DNA from: a virus | Virus record (IMG/VR): IMGVR_UViG_3300012930_000013 | Span: 1-61,994 of that record | Reading direction: 5' to 3' (one strand) | Length of the DNA: 61,994 nucleotides | Part shown: one piece after another, positions 17,753 to 59,935 of the stretch | Position numbering within the stretch: the first letter of the stretch is position 1 | How the letters are laid out: each line of letters starts with the position of its first letter | The notes under the pieces: model-generated | Told to the model about the DNA's origin: nothing | Database searches by the model: none | The model's input: only the letters and a program-made list of their open reading frames with translations | Translations under genes and position numbers: made by a program

Positions 17753-17783
17753 GTTGACGATGTCAACTGGAAATTGCTAGGGT
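17753..17783 (+). promoter_or_regulatory. Promoter with perfect palindromic operator (site 1 of 7)
   Basis: GTTGAC-GAT-GTCAAC is a perfect 15-bp palindrome; its left arm supplies the -35 box TTGACG. An 18-base spacer leads to TAGGGT (17778-17783). The start codon of the UvsW-like gene lies 11 bases after the -10 box, leaving little or no leader and no ribosome site. It separates late tail genes from replication genes. Confidence 0.8.
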
Positions 17784-24640: not shown

Positions 24641-24669
24641 GTTGACATTGTCATCACACACGTTAGAGT
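24641..24669 (+). promoter_or_regulatory. Promoter with operator-like element (site 2 of 7)
   Basis: GTTGAC-ATT-GTCATC; -35 TTGACA and, 16 bases on, TAGAGT (24664-24669). The downstream gene starts at GTG 24705 with a good AGGAG site, so this promoter, unlike sites 1 and 4-7, has a normal leader of about 30 bases. Confidence 0.75.
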
Positions 24670-33088: not shown

Positions 33089-33365
33089 GATGAGACTACT
33101 CACGGTAACAGACAGCGACATCATCGAGGCCATCGGGTTCGGTACGCTGATGGAGAATCCGGGAGGTGTACCTGGAACGTTCGGCACCCTTGGAGTCGTG
33201 TTCAAGTCATCGCAGGACACTATCTATGAGTACAAGGACGTGGCCATCGACACGTTCGCCAAGCTCATCGCTGGGGACAGCATCGGCAAGGTGTTCCATG
33301 AGCTGTTCAGGAGGACCAAGTACCCGTTCACGAAGAGTGCGAGGACGCCGACGCTCAAGAAGTAG
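33081..33365 (+). CDS. KTSC-domain-like protein
   Basis: 94 aa. The segment YEYKDVAIDTFAKLIAGDSI with a following VFHELFRRTKYPF resembles the KTSC domain (short lysine-tRNA-synthetase-associated domain), common as a single small protein in phages and bacteria. Function unknown. It ends just before the promoter at 33365. Confidence 0.6.
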   Translation: MSKMRLLTVTDSDIIEAIGFGTLMENPGGVPGTFGTLGVVFKSSQDTIYEYKDVAIDTFAKLIAGDSIGKVFHELFRRTKYPFTKSARTPTLKK

Positions 33366-33395
33366 TTGACAACGTCACCACGATTTTCATAGGAT
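33365..33395 (+). promoter_or_regulatory. Promoter with operator-like element (site 3 of 7)
   Basis: GTTGAC-AAC-GTCACC, -35 TTGACA, 18-base spacer, -10 TAGGAT (33390-33395). The next start (ATG 33415) has GGAGG at 33402-33406, so translation is leadered with a ribosome site. Confidence 0.8.
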
Positions 33396-35044: not shown

Positions 35045-35991
35045 TGAGCCAAGTGAACTACAAGAGCACGAGGCTGCTGGTCGAGGCAGTCAACCGAGAG
35101 ATGGAGATCGTCAGGAAGGCAGCGATGGGGAACATGGCGCTCGGCTCGCTGAACGAGCTCCGCGACCTGGTCGCCGAGCTCGCTGAGAAGGCGACGAGGA
35201 CGGCGGTAGAGGACGTCCCGGAGCTGGTGCCAGCCGAGTACGTCGCGACCATGAAGCCGCTCGTCGCCACCTACCACCGACTACTCATGAACGCCGACCA
35301 GCTCGCGCCGTGCCTGTGCATGGACCTGAAGGTGGCCGCCTGCGTGGTGATCCTCGTGGGCGACGAGAAGTCCTCCGTCAAGACCGCGCACGACCCGAGC
35401 CGGCCGGAAGCCGCGCTCGTGGTCGAGACGCTCCTCGCGTCGCTCGACGGCGGTACGAAGCGGGTCGCGGTCGAGGCCGAGACGGTGAACCTGATGGGGG
35501 GTGCCTGGGAGGTCTACCGCTGCGACCAGGCCGATCCAGACCAGGCATGCGGGATCCGCCGCGTTGGTCCGCCGGACCCGGGAGGGTGTGACTTCGTCGT
35601 GCGCGACACTAACCGCGACGAGTGTTGTCATGACATGCGGCTCGCAGACGCCGAGCACATCGTCGGAGCTCACAACAATCTGGTCGCAGACGACCTTGCA
35701 GCAGTCAAGGTGAAGACGAGTGATGATGGGTTGGTGACCATGACCACGACAACGCTCACCACCGATCGTCTGGCTGAGATTGAGGCGCTGTGCAAGCGTG
35801 TGACCCTCGGACCGCGGCGCTGGGGAGACCCGGCTGATGCACTCCTCGTTGCCACATGCCGTATCATCATCCCAGAACTCCTCGCCGAGATCCGTCGGTT
35901 GCGCGCAGACCTCGATCCGTGCGGCTCCGAGGATTGCTACGTGCTCGCCTCCATCAGGCGCAACGCTAGGATCGACGAGGACGAGGTGTGA
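35044..35991 (+). CDS. Unknown protein with two Cys clusters
   Basis: 315 aa, GTG start overlapping the microprotein stop. The first ~110 residues are helical; further on a Cys-rich segment (CDQADPDQACGIRR ... DECCH) could bind zinc. The C-terminal ~80 residues (LAEIEALCKRV... LLAEIRRLRADL) are like a phage domain found in many small proteins. Function unknown. It overlaps the SLOG-type gene. Confidence 0.6.
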   Translation: MSQVNYKSTRLLVEAVNREMEIVRKAAMGNMALGSLNELRDLVAELAEKATRTAVEDVPELVPAEYVATMKPLVATYHRLLMNADQLAPCLCMDLKVAACVVILVGDEKSSVKTAHDPSRPEAALVVETLLASLDGGTKRVAVEAETVNLMGGAWEVYRCDQADPDQACGIRRVGPPDPGGCDFVVRDTNRDECCHDMRLADAEHIVGAHNNLVADDLAAVKVKTSDDGLVTMTTTTLTTDRLAEIEALCKRVTLGPRRWGDPADALLVATCRIIIPELLAEIRRLRADLDPCGSEDCYVLASIRRNARIDEDEV

Positions 35992-39712: not shown

Positions 39713-39743
39713 GTTGACAACGTCATCACGAGCGCGGTAGGAT
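39713..39743 (+). promoter_or_regulatory. Promoter with operator-like element (site 4 of 7)
   Basis: GTTGAC-AAC-GTCATC, -35 TTGACA, 18-base spacer, -10 TAGGAT (39738-39743). The next ATG (39753) is only 9 bases past the -10 box, so the transcript may be leaderless. Confidence 0.8.
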
Positions 39744-42901: not shown

Positions 42902-42931
42902 GTTGACGACGTCACCAGGATGAGGTAGCGT
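42902..42931 (+). promoter_or_regulatory. Promoter with operator-like element (site 5 of 7)
   Basis: GTTGAC-GAC-GTCACC, -35 TTGACG, 17-base spacer, -10 TAGCGT (42926-42931). ATG 42939 is 7 bases after the -10 box: leaderless initiation likely. A second TTGACGTCATC lies just upstream (42887). Confidence 0.75.
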
Positions 42932-46735: not shown

Positions 46736-46993
46736 GTGAGCAGGCGAAGACGCCGGAGACCTGTGGTGAAGATGGACCTCTACCGCAAGGCGAAGTGGAT
46801 GGTGGCGAACGGCCTGCCGCCGGCGCACGTCGCCGCGCGCCTCGGCATCTCCCGCACAACCGGGCTGCGCTGGCGCCAGCTCATGGACCACGACGCGACC
46901 GTCAGCGAGCTCCGGCGCCGGGTGCTGCAGCTGCCGCCGCATTGCCGAGAGCAGATCGCCACGGCGATCCAGGACGCGAGGAGAGCAGCGTGA
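46736..46993 (+). CDS. Helix-turn-helix protein, leaderless
   Basis: 85 aa from GTG 46736. A longer frame (from 46622) would cross the operators and the promoter, so it was not used. Basic N-terminus (VSRRRRRRPVVK), then HTH: VAARLGISRTTGLRWRQLM. A likely transcription regulator that controls the divergent region it sits beside. Overlaps the next gene by GTGA. Confidence 0.6.
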   Translation: MSRRRRRRPVVKMDLYRKAKWMVANGLPPAHVAARLGISRTTGLRWRQLMDHDATVSELRRRVLQLPPHCREQIATAIQDARRAA

Positions 46994-47253
46994 ACGACGA
47001 TTTGCATCTTGTGCCGTGCAGGCTGAGCGACTTAGGTCGTGGCGTTACCCTCCTCGTCTCGAGCAGCGCCGACGAACCGCTGCGCCCAGCTACGCGGTGG
47101 GAGCGCTTGAAGTACGCGGTGCTTCAGCCGCTGTTTCACACCACTCGTTGGTTTCGACCTCGGGTTACTGTGGTTAGGATCGGGGACGACGGGTGCGAGC
47201 TGACTTACGAGCGCTGGTCTTGGCTCCGCTGGTGCTGGGAGCAGGTGTCATGA
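46990..47253 (+). CDS. Small unknown protein
   Basis: 87 aa, GTG at the overlap. Trp/Arg-rich C-terminus (ERWSWLRWCWEQV). No motif. Overlaps the terminase-like gene by ATGA. Confidence 0.5.
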   Translation: MNDDLHLVPCRLSDLGRGVTLLVSSSADEPLRPATRWERLKYAVLQPLFHTTRWFRPRVTVVRIGDDGCELTYERWSWLRWCWEQVS

Positions 47254-48269
47254 GCTCGTCGAAGAAGGACCGGACCACGGCGCCTCGCATGGGATCGCGC
47301 CCGTCCAAGGCGAAGCACGTCGACGATCGCAACGTGGCGCCGCCGGCGGGCTACCGCGCCGCCGGCAAGCCCAAGCCGGGTGAGCACGCCATGCGCGATC
47401 AGCTCGCCCGGCGCTTGCCCCGCGTCAACGCCAACCTCTGCCAGAACCTGGACTGCGGTCACGCCCACGAGGCGCACGACCTGGACGACTCGTGCTCGGA
47501 ATGCGAGTGCCGGGTCTGGACGCCGGTGGTACCTTCAGACGTCACCGAGGGCGGCTCCGAGCTTCCTTCGTCGCCGGCAGCATCACCAGGTGCTGCCGGC
47601 ATCCTCGTCCTGGCCGACCTGGACGCACCTCCTCCGGCCGACCCGTGGTGGACGCCGGAGCGCGAGCGCGCGTTCTCCCTCACCCTCCAGGGCGCGCCTC
47701 AACACGTCGTCGCCGGCGAGCTCGGTCGCGACCGCCACACGGTCGCCCGGTGGGTGGAGGACGACCGCTTCGTGCAGCGGCTGTTCGACGAGAACGCGTC
47801 GCGGTTCAAGGCGTCGCGCCAGCGCCGAGCGGTCCAGACCGTGCGGCTCACCGACAAGGCTGAGAGCCTCGCGGTCAAGATGCTCGACAAGGCGATCAAG
47901 CTGGCCGAGAAGGGCGAGGACCAGCTCGGGGTCCGCCTCGCCGCGCGCGACTGGCTGCAGGAGTTTCGTGAGAACTCGCGGCGCGAGGACGAGATCTACG
48001 GGATCGCCGGCTCGAAGGTCGACGTCAACGTGCACGGCAACGTCCAGCACCAGCACCGCGGCAAGGTCGACGTGAGCTTCAAGGCGTTCCTGACGACGTC
48101 ACTGGAGAACGTCGGCGTCGACCTGGGCAAGGAGGAGGTCGCCGCCGACCGCGCGGACGCGGCGCTGGTCGCGGTCACCGAGCGGGCGCTGCTCGAGGGG
48201 ACCTTCCTGGACGAGCTGGTCGAGCGCGAGAAGGAGCAGAGGCTCGCGCCCATGCTCGCCGACCGCTAG
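47250..48269 (+). CDS. Probable small terminase subunit
   Basis: 339 aa from ATG at the ATGA overlap. Residues ~60-130 have CxxC/CxC motifs (NLDCGHAHE, CSECECR). An HTH region near 150-180 (LTLQGAPQHVVAGELGRDRH, TVARWVEDD) resembles small terminase N-terminal DNA-binding domains. The rest is helical oligomerisation. Small terminases recognise the packaging site. The large subunit is on the other strand at 52392. Ends exactly at a 12-bp palindrome. Confidence 0.55.
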   Translation: MSSSKKDRTTAPRMGSRPSKAKHVDDRNVAPPAGYRAAGKPKPGEHAMRDQLARRLPRVNANLCQNLDCGHAHEAHDLDDSCSECECRVWTPVVPSDVTEGGSELPSSPAASPGAAGILVLADLDAPPPADPWWTPERERAFSLTLQGAPQHVVAGELGRDRHTVARWVEDDRFVQRLFDENASRFKASRQRRAVQTVRLTDKAESLAVKMLDKAIKLAEKGEDQLGVRLAARDWLQEFRENSRREDEIYGIAGSKVDVNVHGNVQHQHRGKVDVSFKAFLTTSLENVGVDLGKEEVAADRADAALVAVTERALLEGTFLDELVEREKEQRLAPMLADR

Positions 48270-49736: not shown

Positions 49737-50807
49737 TTACTTCTGTCTGTCTGCTTGCAACCGGAGCGCATCGTCGATGCGCCGGTCTAATATGATGTCC
49801 CCAGTGCCACGGTCCAGGACAGCGTGGTCTACGAAGAGGTACGTCGAGGCGACGTTCAGTGACCTGCGGACACCGAGCACGTTTCTCGGGAACGGCACGC
49901 CCAGCCGCTGTCGCCACCCTCTCACCAGCTCCCGCATCTCTAGCTCATGTGCGGCAGAGGTCCCGCACACGATCATTGTAGGTAGGTTGTCCCTGAGACA
50001 CTCGGCGAACGCGCGCACGAGGCCGCGCCACGTTCTTCCGGTTCTGCGACCGACTCCAGAATCCCATGGGTATGGTCCAGCCATGTACCTATTATTCTGG
50101 TCCGCGGCGAACACGTCGAAGTCCACCAGGTCGAGCTGGTCGCGGATCTCGTCAGCTAGCGCGTCGATCTCGGCACGTCTGCGGTCATTGCGGGTGAACC
50201 GCGGGCGGGTTGTGCGGGACACGTCGAAGACCCGGACACCGGGTACCTCCACTTCTGGTTTCGCGGTTATGGGCAGCTTCGGCGGCGGGAACATCGTGTG
50301 GAGCGTGAGCTGGCGGCACACCACGCAGTGCAGGTTGAGCTCTGACAAGCTCATCGTGACCAGCTCCCGTCGACCGCACCTGCCGCACCTGTACTCCGCG
50401 CACCTCGTCGACGGGGAGATCTTGTAGGTCGGTCCCGGCGGAGGGCACCCGAGGCACACAGCGATGGTTGCAACGGGCTCGAGGGCGCGGCGCAGCGCGA
50501 ACGCTCCCCCCTCGCATCTCGGGCACATAGGATAATCGGTCTGATCGCGCAGCACGGTTTCAGTCGGGGGAAGAGTTGAGCTCAACTCTTCGTCCACCAC
50601 GATCTGGGCGCTCGGCACCGGCGGAGGTTCGGACGTGGTGAGCAGGTCGATGAGGGAGAAGGCGACCCCTCCGGTGAGCTTCGTAGGGATCTGCTCCAGG
50701 TATGCGCGGGCCTCGACCAGCAGAGGCTCGGACCTGGTCGGCATCTCGGGCGGAGAGTTGAGCTCCTCCGCGATCATCGTGAACCTGAGGTCCTTGTCGT
50801 CCGGCAT
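49737..50807 (-). CDS. Unknown protein with zinc ribbons
   Basis: 356 aa from ATG 50807, which the -10 box at 50822-50817 would place within 10 bases of the transcription start; a GTG at 50831 would extend it by 8 residues. Contains CPRCEGG, CLGC, CGRCGRR and CVVC, indicating zinc ribbons at ~90-180. The C-terminal third (RMRELVRGWRQRLGVPFP-like region) is helical. No family recognised. Confidence 0.55.
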   Translation of the reverse strand: MPDDKDLRFTMIAEELNSPPEMPTRSEPLLVEARAYLEQIPTKLTGGVAFSLIDLLTTSEPPPVPSAQIVVDEELSSTLPPTETVLRDQTDYPMCPRCEGGAFALRRALEPVATIAVCLGCPPPGPTYKISPSTRCAEYRCGRCGRRELVTMSLSELNLHCVVCRQLTLHTMFPPPKLPITAKPEVEVPGVRVFDVSRTTRPRFTRNDRRRAEIDALADEIRDQLDLVDFDVFAADQNNRYMAGPYPWDSGVGRRTGRTWRGLVRAFAECLRDNLPTMIVCGTSAAHELEMRELVRGWRQRLGVPFPRNVLGVRRSLNVASTYLFVDHAVLDRGTGDIILDRRIDDALRLQADRQK

Positions 50808-50816
50808 CTTGAGGTC

Positions 50817-50846
50817 ATCTTGCCGGTTCACGTTGACGTTGTCAAC
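50817..50846 (-). promoter_or_regulatory. Promoter with perfect palindromic operator (site 6 of 7)
   Basis: GTTGAC-AAC-GTCAAC on the - strand is a perfect 15-bp palindrome (50832-50846). It fills most of the 51 bases between the two genes' most likely start and stop. -35 TTGACA and a weak -10 CAAGAT (17-base spacer). The ATG at 50807 is 9 bases beyond it. Confidence 0.7.
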
Positions 50847-54827: not shown

Positions 54828-55006
54828 GGCGCGCGGCCGGCGTACTGGCCGTGGATCGCCAGGAGGAACGCGCAGTCCGTCAGGGTGCGCCGTCTGAGCT
54901 CGGCGTTCTCCACCGCGAGCCTGGTGAGGAGCTCTCGGAGCCGCGTCGACTCGGCGAGCTCGTCGCCGTACATCCACTGGTAGTGCTCTGCGAGGTCCAG
55001 TGTCAT
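54824..55006 (-). CDS. Small leucine-zipper-like protein
   Basis: 60 aa. Leu heptads in ESTRLRELLTRLAVENAELR suggest a parallel coiled coil. Coupled by overlaps on both sides. Function unknown. Confidence 0.5.
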   Translation of the reverse strand: MTLDLAEHYQWMYGDELAESTRLRELLTRLAVENAELRRRTLTDCAFLLAIHGQYAGRAP

Positions 55007-55350
55007 CAGAGTTTCCGTGGGTTGGTGACCCTGTCGATGAGCCGCCGGATGCGGGCTGTCTGCTCGGTCATCCTCGGCACGTCGAGCTCATAGAAGCGAG
55101 CCTCGGCATCCCTGCCGCCGGGGATCTTGGTCACCTGGACCAGGGCCGTAGATAGCGCGAATAACAGCTCGTCGAGCTCCTCCGGCGTGTAGCCGCGGGG
55201 CGGCGCGGCGGCGTCCTGGTCGTCGGCGTTGACCACGATCCGGAACGCCCTGGCAACCTGTCCATCGAGCTCGGTCCTCGGGTCTCCGCGGACCGCGCGG
55301 CACTCGTCGCACCCGCACGACGGGGAGCAGGACCGGGTCAGGGTCGTCAC
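55006..55350 (-). CDS. Unknown protein with Cys cluster
   Basis: 114 aa, GTG start coupled to the RHH stop. N-terminal CSPSCGCDEC (4 Cys in 10 residues) looks like a small zinc or metal site. The rest is helical. Co-transcribed with the RHH regulator. Confidence 0.5.
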   Translation of the reverse strand: MTTLTRSCSPSCGCDECRAVRGDPRTELDGQVARAFRIVVNADDQDAAAPPRGYTPEELDELLFALSTALVQVTKIPGGRDAEARFYELDVPRMTEQTARIRRLIDRVTNPRKL

Positions 55351-55571
55351 CTCGTCGCCCGCTTGAGCTCGTCGTTGATGACCTTCCGGATCCAGGAGCT
55401 CACGTTCGGGAACCCGAGCGCCTGAGAGCGCTCCACCCAGGAGTCGAGGTCCCTGGACGAGCACCGGAGCTGGTGCCTCTTGTCAAGGTCCGGCGACAAG
55501 ACGCGCGGTCTTCCGGGAGCCTTGCCGCCGTCCGCCTCGTCGACGGTTGGTCTGCGTTTCTTCTGTGCCAT
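55347..55571 (-). CDS. Ribbon-helix-helix DNA-binding protein, candidate regulator
   Basis: 74 aa from ATG 55571, which the -10 box at 55582-55577 places 6 bases downstream; two earlier ATGs in frame (55586, 55577) overlap that -10 box. Basic N-terminus (MAQKKRRP), then KRHQLRCSSRDLDSW and FPNVSSWIRKVINDEL, the strand-helix-helix pattern of Arc/CopG-type RHH proteins, which bind palindromic operators as dimers. A perfect 15-bp palindromic operator lies right upstream (55592-55606), so autoregulation is likely. Confidence 0.75.
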   Translation of the reverse strand: MAQKKRRPTVDEADGGKAPGRPRVLSPDLDKRHQLRCSSRDLDSWVERSQALGFPNVSSWIRKVINDELKRATR

Positions 55572-55576
55572 GGACA

Positions 55577-55606
55577 TACCTATCATTTCCTGTTGACGAC
55601 GTCAAC
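55577..55606 (-). promoter_or_regulatory. Promoter with perfect palindromic operator (site 7 of 7)
   Basis: On the - strand GTTGAC-GTC-GTCAAC, perfect palindrome (55592-55606), followed after 17 bases by TAGGTA (55582-55577). It drives the RHH regulator, whose ATG 55571 is 6 bases beyond the -10 box. Confidence 0.75.
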
Positions 55607-55634: not shown

Positions 55635-56054
55635 CTACTCGGCGGTCGTGGTGTACGTCGAGCCTCGCATGAAGACGTCCTTCAGCTGGTTGCTGACGAT
55701 GACCAGGTCGGCCACGCGGCGAGGTCCGACGATGGTGCTCTGCACGTCGACGTCGTCGTGTCGGACTCCGCGTCCACACGGCCTGAGCCCAGCGCACTCG
55801 GCGTACGCGATCGACGTGTCCAGCGGGTCGCTCGTGCGGACGCAGAACAGCACCTGCGTGCTCGGGTCGTTGCACCGGAAGTCGACGCTGGCGCCGAGTA
55901 GCCGGGTCCCGGAGTCGGCGACGACCGGGGCGACCAGCTGCCCGTCCAGCTCGTGGAACGCCGACGGGCCGCCGACGGTCTCGACGTCCTGTTCTGTCGT
56001 GGAGTCGCCGCACGCGGTGACGGCGATGCACAAGGTGATCATGATCTTGTTCAT
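55635..56054 (-). CDS. Lipoprotein
   Basis: 139 aa. Short signal (MNKIMITLCIAVTACG) with lipobox TACG, giving a lipidated Cys and a GDSTTEQD mature N-terminus. Beta-rich with Cys pairs (CNDPS, LFCVR, CAGLRPCG). Composition resembles Myxococcota lipoproteins. Coupled to the upstream gene by ATGA. Confidence 0.65.
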   Translation of the reverse strand: MNKIMITLCIAVTACGDSTTEQDVETVGGPSAFHELDGQLVAPVVADSGTRLLGASVDFRCNDPSTQVLFCVRTSDPLDTSIAYAECAGLRPCGRGVRHDDVDVQSTIVGPRRVADLVIVSNQLKDVFMRGSTYTTTAE

Positions 56055-56515
56055 GACTCTCGGCTCCTCTTGATGGCGGCGCGGACGCGCTCGCGCTCGA
56101 CGTCCTCGCACGCCACGACGGCGTCCATCAGCTTCTTGTCGACGTTGCCCGTGATCGCCAGCTCGACGAGCCGGTTGAGCTCCCTCGGCGGGAGCGCGTC
56201 CAGCTCCCAGCTCTGGTCGCCGTACTTGGCGATGTAAGCCCGCGCTCTCGAGTCGGTGACCTTGGCTGGGTTCGGCGGCGGCTTGAACTTCTTGATCTGG
56301 GTCATGAGCCCGGCGTACCGCGCGTCGGTGAGCACGCTCGTGAGGTTCTGGTAGCTGCGCGGCGTGTTCGGAATCAGGTCGCGCGCTACGAACTGGTAGT
56401 AGACCTGCCGGGCGGTGAGCTTCTGACCGCCGTACTCGGAGATGATCTCGTCCGCCTTGCTGATGGTCGACATGGTCTCGGATCGGAAGTTGGTGATGCG
56501 GAACTGCTGCTTCAT
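56051..56515 (-). CDS. Internally deleted TOPRIM-family protein (TopoVI-A/Spo11-like)
   Basis: 154 aa. The start (QKLTARQVYYQFVARDLIPN, then a YQNL...DARYAGL block) is the N-terminal winged-helix pattern of a protein family whose full-length members continue with a TOPRIM domain. The end (PPPNPAKVTDSRARAY, then SWELDALPP) matches the C-terminus of the same family. About 130-150 residues between them, including the catalytic part, are missing; the join lies near residue 72 (~56300). Reading frame is intact, so it is expressed as a short form. Role unknown. Confidence 0.65.
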   Translation of the reverse strand: MKQQFRITNFRSETMSTISKADEIISEYGGQKLTARQVYYQFVARDLIPNTPRSYQNLTSVLTDARYAGLMTQIKKFKPPPNPAKVTDSRARAYIAKYGDQSWELDALPPRELNRLVELAITGNVDKKLMDAVVACEDVERERVRAAIKRSRES

Positions 56516-56970
56516 GGCATGTCATCCAAGATCTTGGTGATTGTTCGAGTGCTCGTCTTGCACACGCTTGGTACGGGTCGGACACCCGTCTGACTCGACG
56601 GCTGAGTGTTCATGGCGTCGAGGCAGTCTTCAAGGTCGACCGCCGAGACGACCGCGTGCGCGCCGGTGTGGCAGCGCTGGGCACGCCACGCGTCTCGGCA
56701 CGTGATGGCCTGCGCTTCTGGCCGCACGAGGGCACAGTACGTGAACGCCTGCGCCTCGCACGCCTCCGACGCCGGTACGTCGTCACCTCTGCACGCCGCC
56801 TCCTTGAGGTGCTCGCACTCCTGGGTGGTCAGCGCCGAGGTGGAGATCGGATCGGCCGAGCAGTGGTCGACCGCCTGCGCCCGGCAGTCGTCGTCACCGA
56901 CCGTGCACCCTGCGAATAACATCATCGCCGTCATCACAGTCAACCACAGATGAATGCTGTTGGTGTTCAT
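56512..56970 (-). CDS. Cys-rich lipoprotein
   Basis: 152 aa. Signal with lipobox FAGC (MNTNSIHLWLTVMTAMMLFAGC), followed by TVGDDDC and about ten more Cys (for example EHLKEAACRG, ALVRPEAQAITC). Extracellular, disulfide-stabilised. Start overlaps the end of the gene at 56894. Confidence 0.65.
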   Translation of the reverse strand: MNTNSIHLWLTVMTAMMLFAGCTVGDDDCRAQAVDHCSADPISTSALTTQECEHLKEAACRGDDVPASEACEAQAFTYCALVRPEAQAITCRDAWRAQRCHTGAHAVVSAVDLEDCLDAMNTQPSSQTGVRPVPSVCKTSTRTITKILDDMP

Positions 56971-57196: not shown

Positions 57197-57474
57197 TATG
57201 ATCCTCCGTATTCAATGACCGCACCGTGCTGCAAGACGCGCGGTTTGTCCTTCACCAACTCATCACGGAAAAAATGCCGGTCGCGCTTGATGTCGAGGTT
57301 AGCGCGCTTGGTAGCGTGGCGCTCCTGCGTCGTGTAGCTGCGCTTGCAGACGACGAGCGGGTAGCGCTCATTGACCGCGAGCTCGACCGCCTCGGCCTTA
57401 CTCGCGGCGATCACGCACACCACGCCGCCGGTGTAGTCGCCGAGCGACTTCGGGTACCAGACGTACATCCTCAC
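57196..57474 (-). CDS. Unknown protein
   Basis: 92 aa, GTG coupled to the RuvB stop. MYVWYPKSLGDYTGGVV then a helical part (SKAEAVELAV) and a basic C-terminal half (RANLDIKRDRHFFRDEL). No motif recognised. Confidence 0.5.
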   Translation of the reverse strand: MRMYVWYPKSLGDYTGGVVCVIAASKAEAVELAVNERYPLVVCKRSYTTQERHATKRANLDIKRDRHFFRDELVKDKPRVLQHGAVIEYGGS

Positions 57475-58469
57475 GACGTCATCTCCGGCGATGGGTCCAC
57501 GCCGAGCTGCTGGACGCGAGTGCGCTCGGCGTGCGCGTGGAGATGCTTGACCGCGGCCGGCAGCACGATCCTCCCCTTCTGGGTCCGCATGATGAGGCCG
57601 AGCTCGAGGAGCACGGGCTCGATGATGCCCTCGATCTGGCCGCGCTCGATGCCGAGCTGCGCGGCGATGGTGAGCACGCCGACCGGCGAGCCGAGTCGCT
57701 CGCACAGGACCCCGAGGTACTCGCGGTCCTTGGCGTCGAGCCCGAGCGCGTCGAGCCCGAGCGCGTCGAACGTGGCCTCGGCGACCTCGAGCGTAAGCGT
57801 CGCCTCGCCGGCGCTCTCCATAAAGTCGCGGCAGTTGCGCACGAGGCGGTTGGCGACGCGCGGCGTGCCGCGGCTGCGCCGGCCGATCGCGTCGGCGATG
57901 TTGTCGCAGAACACGTTCGTGCGCATCCCGAGCCGCTCCATGGTCTTTCGAGCGATGGTCGCGAGGTCCGGGACCGAGTAGTGCCCGAGCTGGAACGTGT
58001 ACGCGAAACGGTCCCGGAGCGGCCCGGTCAGCAGGTGCGCGCGCGTGGTCGCGCCGACCAGGGTGAAAGGCTGCAGCGGCAGGCGGACGGTGCGCTTGCC
58101 TGCGGACAGGTCGACGTGGCCGTCTTCCATGGCGGTGTACAGGAGCTCCTGCATCGCGGACTTGAGCCCATGGACCTCGTCCAGGAACAGCACGTCGTGG
58201 CGGCCGAGCGTGGTGAGCAGGCCGGTCAGCTCGCCCTTGTGCTCGATCGCCGTGGCGACCGCGGCGTGGAGCTTGGTACCCATTTCCGAGGCGATGATGT
58301 TCGACAAGCTCGTCTTACCACATCCTGCTAATCCGCTTAAGAGGACGTGGCTACACGCACGATCGCCGTGGCGGGCCGCGACCACGGCACGCCGGAGCAC
58401 GTCGATCGTCGCTCGCTGGCCGACGTAGTCGTCGAATGAGGCGGGGCGGATGTCCTGGTCCTTGCTCAT
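57471..58469 (-). CDS. ruvB: RuvB-like Holliday-junction branch-migration ATPase
   Basis: 332 aa from ATG 58469 (the longer upstream frame is a shadow). RuvB motifs throughout: FDDYVGQ, HVLLSG, Walker A GLAGCGKT (46-53), DVLFLDEVHGL (Walker B, D97-E98), VGATTRAHLLTGPLRDRF (sensor/Arg-finger region, 138-155) and RSRGTPRVANRL. Length matches bacterial RuvB (about 335 aa). RuvA is not seen, so it may use the host RuvA or a phage substitute. A tandem LGLDALGLDA is unusual. It fits with the resolvase-like nuclease at 43543. Confidence 0.92.
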   Translation of the reverse strand: MSKDQDIRPASFDDYVGQRATIDVLRRAVVAARHGDRACSHVLLSGLAGCGKTSLSNIIASEMGTKLHAAVATAIEHKGELTGLLTTLGRHDVLFLDEVHGLKSAMQELLYTAMEDGHVDLSAGKRTVRLPLQPFTLVGATTRAHLLTGPLRDRFAYTFQLGHYSVPDLATIARKTMERLGMRTNVFCDNIADAIGRRSRGTPRVANRLVRNCRDFMESAGEATLTLEVAEATFDALGLDALGLDAKDREYLGVLCERLGSPVGVLTIAAQLGIERGQIEGIIEPVLLELGLIMRTQKGRIVLPAAVKHLHAHAERTRVQQLGVDPSPEMTS

Positions 58470-58913: not shown

Positions 58914-59159
58914 TCACCGTCTCTTCGCCTTATTGCACATGACCTCATCGAGTAGTGGATCATGTCGTAGCTTGACATAGACGTGTTCGACGCCGAACTG
59001 GTGGTTGATTTTCTCGAAGGTGGTGGCGAGGTGATTGGCTCCGCGCTTCGTCTTGCGGGTCCCGACGCGAATGCTAGCCGTGTTGCACAGGAAGTCGGCA
59101 AACACATCCCAGCGATACCCGTTGCGTGTCATGTTGCGTTCACCAGTCATCTTAATCAC
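58914..59159 (-). CDS. Small basic protein
   Basis: 81 aa, GTG overlapping the upstream stop; an ATG 9 bases on is possible. Basic, with RVGTRKTKRGANHLATTFEK and a C-terminal KRR. Possibly nucleic-acid binding. Function unknown. Confidence 0.5.
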   Translation of the reverse strand: MIKMTGERNMTRNGYRWDVFADFLCNTASIRVGTRKTKRGANHLATTFEKINHQFGVEHVYVKLRHDPLLDEVMCNKAKRR

Positions 59160-59935
59160 CGCTTCTTGGTACGAGTGCGTTTCTCCTTCGACTTCGACTT
59201 AGAGGTGGCAGGCTTGGCAGCCAACTTGGCCTTGAGCTTCTTGACCTCCGCGGTGAGCCGGTCACGTTGTTGCGTGAACCAGGTGAGCTCAGTACCACGC
59301 ACCTCAGCCTGCTCATGGAAGAAATCGCGGTCGCGCCGGCACTGATCGTACTCCTTCTTCAGCGTCGATGCCGACTCGAGCGCGTCGGCGACCGACTCGG
59401 CGCCGAACATCTCCCGGAGCTTGATGTGGAGCGAGAACAGGTTAGCTTCGGCTGCGTCACAAGACTCGACGGCCTCGCGCCCGATGTTGGAGTTACCGAC
59501 GGCCTGCCGGGTCGCATCATCGCGCCCGCTCATCAGCAGCCGGACCCGGTTGGGCAGGCTGATCTCGATGTTGATGCCGGCGCCATCGCGCGGCACCGTG
59601 CGCGGGACGCCTGCGGCGTCGAGGATGTTGGTCAACTCGAGCATGATGTTCTCTTCTCGTGTGTTTTCAGGGTTCTCAATCATGATGTGCTCCTGCTCTC
59701 GCATGTTTTCTGGTTTATTAAACATCGGGCGATCATCGACCGCACTACGTGCACGTCGCTCGGCGAGCTTCTTGGCGACGGCATCGATCACTCCTTGGTC
59801 GACGGAGATCTCGTTACACCGGCGGCGGATCCACTCCGAGAGCTGAAGGCCTTCGGCGCCCGCGGTTACGCGCCAGCGCTTGAGATCATCGCTGGGAACG
59901 CGCAGTTCCACTCGCTCATCGTCTCTGGGTGACAT
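59156..59935 (-). CDS. RHH-like protein with long helical tail
   Basis: 259 aa. The first ~45 residues (RVELRVPSDDLKRWRVTA, then LSEWIRRRCNEI) have the RHH/Arc pattern, followed by a long coiled-coil tail with Lys-rich end (KSKSKEKRTRTKKR). The family often regulates transcription, but the tail suggests scaffold or DNA-compaction roles. Confidence 0.6.
   Translation of the reverse strand: MSPRDDERVELRVPSDDLKRWRVTAGAEGLQLSEWIRRRCNEISVDQGVIDAVAKKLAERRARSAVDDRPMFNKPENMREQEHIMIENPENTREENIMLELTNILDAAGVPRTVPRDGAGINIEISLPNRVRLLMSGRDDATRQAVGNSNIGREAVESCDAAEANLFSLHIKLREMFGAESVADALESASTLKKEYDQCRRDRDFFHEQAEVRGTELTWFTQQRDRLTAEVKKLKAKLAAKPATSKSKSKEKRTRTKKR

Follow-up and report, generated by a model that had tools for sequence, protein, structure and literature searches.

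A 74-amino-acid protein encoded in a viral DNA of 61,994 bp is probably an Arc/Mnt-type ribbon-helix-helix (RHH) autorepressor that blocks host polymerase from the promoters driving operons for replication, recombination and accessory functions. The whole stretch of DNA that was analysed, a complete IMG/VR record, is referred to as the window. An operator overlapping a promoter lies directly upstream of the RHH gene, the same operator recurs elsewhere in the window, and among related phages the operator and the RHH gene are found together. One operator is thus shared by the RHH promoter and further promoters of the phage, the arrangement by which multi-promoter autoregulation is recognised.

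The RHH reading frame ends at 55347 and has candidate starts at 55586, 55577 and 55571, the last being the ATG of the 74-residue form. The palindrome upstream of it reads GTTGACGACGTCAAC, in which the arms GTTGACG and CGTCAAC surround a central A, the sole asymmetry. The initial annotation had described a perfect palindrome 21 bases, and a −10 box 6 bases, before the gene. The palindrome and the layout were confirmed, while the counts are trivially off, the measured distances to the ATG being 20 bp from the palindrome and 5 bp from the −10 hexamer TAGGTA. The −35 hexamer TTGACG sits within the palindrome. The RHH mRNA of the window is predicted to be leaderless or almost so. The gene that follows (55006–55350) overlaps the RHH stop codon.

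Table 1. Operator sites, RHH gene and its predicted promoter in the window
Feature	Position	Strand	Description
Operator copy with promoter	17753..17767	+	Precedes helicase – DnaB helicase – primase operon; same position in G018, G017
Operator copy	24641..24655	+	Precedes gene 26 – DNA polymerase – UvsY – UvsX operon; same position in G018, G017
Operator copy with promoter	33365..33379	+	Precedes SbcD/SbcC operon; same position in G002, G018
Operator copy with promoter	39713..39727	+	Precedes operon with HNH and DNA methyltransferase genes; same position in G004
Operator copy with promoter	42902..42916	+	Precedes operon with RusA-like resolvase
Operator copy	50832..50846	−	Upstream of gene 62; same position in G001/G004, G002, G003, L013, L014
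RHH regulator gene	55347..55571	−	74 aa (MAQKKRRP...); opens an operon that extends to terL
Predicted sigma70-type promoter of RHH gene	55577..55605	−	−35 TTGACG, 17-bp spacer, −10 TAGGTA
Autoregulatory operator core	55592..55606	−	GTTGACGTCGTCAAC in gene direction; perfect palindrome

The six further operator copies that had been claimed for the window were all recovered (Table 1), and they fit GTTGACnnnGTCAHC. Matches with at most two mismatches numbered 15 in the window, compared with 3.0 ± 1.6 in shuffled sequence. A scoring matrix built only from the perfect sites of the relatives, with the window left out, found precisely the seven window sites, at 20.1–36.5 bits, the maximum in 60 shuffled windows being 15.3 bits. 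Several one-mismatch core matches, which either contain GTCGAC or lie within genes, were judged to be due to chance. An open reading frame lies downstream of every site (7/7), and a clear −10 hexamer with the −35 hexamer inside the site was seen at five of the seven; the site at 24641 needs a 16-bp spacer to reach a −10 hexamer, and the −10 hexamer at 50832 is poor. Gene 62, downstream of the latter site (49737–50831, 364 aa), has a weak zinc-ribbon match. For most window sites, a counterpart occupies the corresponding gene junction in other lineages. The first 17.7 kb of the window, which carries the baseplate, tail fibre and tail spike genes, contains no operator site. The predicted regulon includes the replication and recombination operons and also the operon leading to terL. 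The earlier suggestion of one repressor for early genes is supported as far as the shared operator is concerned, and holds only in part for the word ‘early’, since the presence of terL inside the RHH operon is a poor fit with a strictly early regulon.

The core of the operator is flanked by TT and AA, which extends the palindrome to 25 bp, TTnnnGTTGACnnnGTCAACnnnAA (34 oriented sites). Of 42 sites, 34 have the TT and 30 have the AA, the dinucleotide background being 1–4%. The left half of the 25-bp site holds the −35 hexamer, TTGACR, and the −10 hexamer is mostly TAnGnT, with a spacer of 17 bp at most sites and 18 bp at most others. Where one half of a site is degenerate, it is the half supplying the −35 hexamer to the downstream gene that stays intact, as expected if a single sequence doubles as promoter and operator. 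The start codon follows the −10 hexamer by 6–10 bp at many sites, the RHH gene of most lineages among them (about 7 bp), so that transcription would begin at or beside the ATG; a leaderless RHH mRNA is our prediction for most lineages. The prediction fails for the G001/G004 lineage, where the 31-bp gap contains a Shine–Dalgarno-like AAAGGAG. G001 also carries symmetrically degenerate sites, GGTGACnnnGTCACC, at 35250, 36077 and 40823, which are perhaps weaker operators.

Related contigs were collected from IMG/VR by searches with the 74-aa protein, TerL and the neighbouring RuvB-like gene. Nine distinct orthologues were compared (the window, the L003/G002 group, L007/G001, L009/G003, L036, L037/G010, L038, L039/G009 and G020), those aligned being 36–61% identical to the window protein. 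A comparison of operator and RHH gene across homologues had been proposed as a check, and the two co-occurred with near-fixed spacing in 9/9 orthologues: each had a perfect palindrome 20–31 bp upstream of its ATG, the distance being 22 bp in seven of the nine, with the window (20 bp) and G001 (31 bp) as the exceptions. With 28 perfect sites in 357 kb of orthologue contigs, the chance of such a placement is about 0.001 per slot. The converse case, an operator without an RHH gene, was sought among the operator-bearing contigs and none was found; those contigs that do lack the RHH gene are fragments that either miss the terL locus or start within it. More distant relatives, with TerL at 48–55% identity (G013, G014, G015 and G016), had neither an orthologue nor a site above 13.4 bits. 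G013, of 118 kb, encodes a distant RHH protein at another locus, in which the strand differs and at which there is no such palindrome. Autoregulation through a shared operator is thus strongly supported by sequence comparison, the distant TerL relatives being without both elements.

A scan with the operator alone gave an independent view of its distribution. When TTnnnGTTGACnnnGTCAACnnnAA was searched against all 2.9 million viral contigs, 48 stretches were returned. Window-gene homologues are present in each of the contigs that the scan added and that have several promoter-type sites (G017, G018, G019, G020, G021 and G022). In G020, which encodes TerL, the RHH gene follows its palindrome at a distance of 22 bp; the other five have no TerL match, indicating that the terL locus is not covered. 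G025 (IMGVR_UViG_3300011443_000399), a 47-kb contig of an unrelated phage, was rejected as a family member because its similar palindromes come with neither window-gene homologues nor the promoter layout. It has three perfect GTTGACnnnGTCAAC sites, e.g. 528, 31340, 46044, as well as four near copies with different centres, and possibly encodes another regulator with a similar site.

Assignment of the 74-aa protein to the RHH fold has good but indirect support, through its orthologues. The window protein itself had no direct match in Pfam, PHROGs, NCBIfam or PDB sequences. The orthologue L039 matched the NikA-like family at 1.9e-5 (25.2 bits, just under the cut-off of 27) and MobA at 3.5e-5, and a profile of the family also picked up a G013 protein scoring above the NikA-like cut-off, together with an RHH-like domain at the N terminus of another window protein (59156–59935). 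A GRP motif, invariant across the family, lies in a basic N-terminal arm and is followed by the core R-x-[QA]-[LI]-R-C and then two helices. The alternating strand residues that serve for base contacts in RHH proteins are present: a gapless alignment of the core places R32-x-Q34-x-R36 on Q-x-N-x-R of Arc and H-x-N-x-R of Mnt. R32 and R36 are invariant across the orthologues, and Q34 is found in all except L036, where Ala replaces it with the operator unchanged. The Arc profile PF03869 matched none of the eight members scanned, whereas it matched Arc and Mnt themselves at about 1e-30, and hhalign of the family profile against Arc and Mnt was not significant. Matches to Arc and Mnt in one profile search were discarded, since both proteins were rows of that profile. 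Two AlphaFold2 monomer models had helices at 39–52 and 57–73 and no strand, at a poor pLDDT of 67; two Foldseek searches with these low-confidence models gave nothing significant.

Because the gene 62 operon carries the operator just as regularly, and gene 56 shows the same distribution to the extent that the contigs cover it, co-occurrence alone cannot name the protein that binds. A different phage protein could be the binder, with the RHH gene merely a member of its regulon, and gene 56 (46763–46990, 76 aa) is the most plausible such protein: it has an HTH_23 match above the cut-off and is 58–75% conserved in operator-bearing lineages, none having been seen in operator-less ones. We nevertheless regard this as unlikely. 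No operator lies directly before gene 56 in the mapped contigs, while the RHH gene always has a perfect copy, which makes the RHH protein the better candidate; members of the RHH fold, moreover, mostly repress, often their own gene. Three other candidates were rejected as binders: gene 57 is also present in operator-less relatives, and a clear homologue of gene 54, like the RHH-like domain of 59156–59935, was found only in the window. The latter domain, encoded on the (−) strand, is fused to a longer protein, the remainder of which is conserved in relatives.

It is also very unlikely that the phage encodes no regulator for these sites, which would then be plain host-type promoters or the targets of a host transcription factor. 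The left half of the site is indeed a consensus −35 box, and searches of bacterial genomes for a host gave no match. However, the conservation of the second half, GTCAMC, and of the TT/AA flanks goes beyond what a −35 box explains, related phages with TerL at 48–55% identity are without the motif, and the constant association with the RHH gene would have no explanation. If the RHH protein is the binder, it could instead act as an activator or dual regulator, as do AmrZ and NikR of H. pylori, among the few RHH proteins known both to activate and to repress (PMC3325190). Such a role is highly improbable here, since the site covers the −35 box, the classic position for occlusion rather than activation. 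A partition or packaging function (ParG-like or TerS-like), with the palindromes as centromere or packaging sites, is suggested by the RHH gene lying shortly upstream of terL in all mapped lineages, yet is scarcely credible, since the sites are single and dispersed over promoters rather than clustered, and gene 57 is a better TerS candidate. Gene 57 (47250–48269, + strand) has HTH_23 and weak Terminase_5 matches as a candidate small terminase subunit; it adjoins terL in G013 and lies several kb from it in the window.

Occlusion of the −35 box by the RHH protein, including at its own promoter, is the simplest reading, and it matches the behaviour of most RHH proteins. These are mostly repressors and bind as dimers or tetramers (PMC3325190), and those of viruses commonly occlude their own promoter (PMC5569661). 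We infer binding, its stoichiometry and its consequences as follows. Two RHH dimers probably occupy the two half sites of TTnnnGTTGACnnnGTCAACnnnAA, one per half site with centres 9 bp apart, and the near symmetry of each hexamer, GTYRAC, fits one dimer per half site. The two-stranded ribbons, through R32, Q34 and R36, would enter the major groove and recognise GTTGAC, while the basic N-terminal arm with its GRP motif may reach the flanking TT/AA. Since TTGACR, the −35 hexamer, is part of the left half, RNA polymerase with host sigma70 should be kept off the DNA by bound repressor. Promoters that bear the site would fire immediately on infection, and repressor made from a mostly leaderless mRNA of the same promoter type would accumulate. 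It would then shut off the replication, recombination and accessory operons as well as its own operon through terL, and the site-free tail and baseplate genes would escape.

The window is a fragment of a larger genome. Near-identical overlapping contigs occur in separate records (G001/G018 and G000/G021), and the 40-kb overlap between G001 (65 kb) and G018 (80 kb) puts genomes of the family at more than 100 kb. G021 is >99.9% identical to the window across 25 kb, and the overlaps of G018 and G022 with G001 and G004 are nearly identical as well. The family is known solely from metagenomes; the nearest isolates by window TerL are SPO1-like phages, at about 36%, and bacterial genomes searched for a host with RHH and TerL profiles gave no matches. 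No integrase or resolvase above the family cut-off was detected in eight records, which suggests a virulent life style. Close to the RHH gene, 57471–58469 (−) encodes a RuvB-like Holliday junction helicase that is 71–85% conserved in relatives, and two small predicted lipoproteins, recognised by a signal-peptide-like start plus Cys, are encoded directly upstream of the RHH operator (55635–56054 and 56512–56970, both −). The contig end (61849–61994) consists of 18-bp tandem repeats encoding a hexapeptide-like repeat (VYGEARVFGQAWVSGQARVYG).

In tailed phages, operators common to many promoters are best known from HTH repressors such as that of the L5 type. The mycobacteriophage L5-type repressor also acts at many sites throughout the genome (PMC9283540), but it is a monomer with HTH and stoperator domains that binds a 13-bp asymmetric site and blocks elongation as well. 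The window site is a 25-bp palindrome at promoters and so differs from the asymmetric 13-bp stoperators of Cluster A. Arc and Mnt of P22 are likewise small phage RHH proteins, with an aligning pattern of strand residues, operators within the promoter region serving Arc's own gene and, for Mnt, a palindrome of similar size. In contrast to the sites described here, up to 12 per record and genome-wide, their action is confined to one locus, immI, of a temperate phage, and their profile similarity to the window family is not significant. A parallel in logic comes from archaeal viruses, whose RHH proteins AvtR, F55 and SvtR act at several viral promoters including their own, AvtR having eight potential sites and F55 covering immediate-early promoters (PMC5569661); these viruses and promoters are archaeal, the operator sequence and layout differ, and the comparison is one of regulatory logic. 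In rudiviruses, an Aca8-type sequence combines a strong promoter and a regulator site before early genes and the regulator gene (PMC11065993), but Aca8 is a predicted winged HTH protein of archaeal viruses, and the window regulon includes core replication operons. RHH control of several promoters in archaeal viruses, Arc and Mnt of P22 and L5-like genome-wide operators are therefore already known; a limited search of the open-access literature found no report of the present protein family or operator.

The analysis provides a proposed regulator–operator pair for a phage family known from metagenomes only, with a 25-bp site conserved over nine lineages. An RHH protein acting at composite promoter–operators, with a leaderless repressor mRNA, would extend the logic of AvtR and F55 to tailed phages. 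A bolder form of the proposal, which we hold to be possible though somewhat doubtful, is that, in a phage family in which no integrase was detected, a single self-limiting RHH repressor made from a leaderless mRNA pulses and then shuts essentially all replication and accessory promoters used by host polymerase, that late genes escape, and that the operator marks uncharacterised accessory-region genes for host takeover or anti-defence. The operator has served as a search tag, having found another family member and further genome fragments, and it lists small uncharacterised genes under the same control; the same approach in archaeal viruses led to anti-defence genes (PMC11065993).
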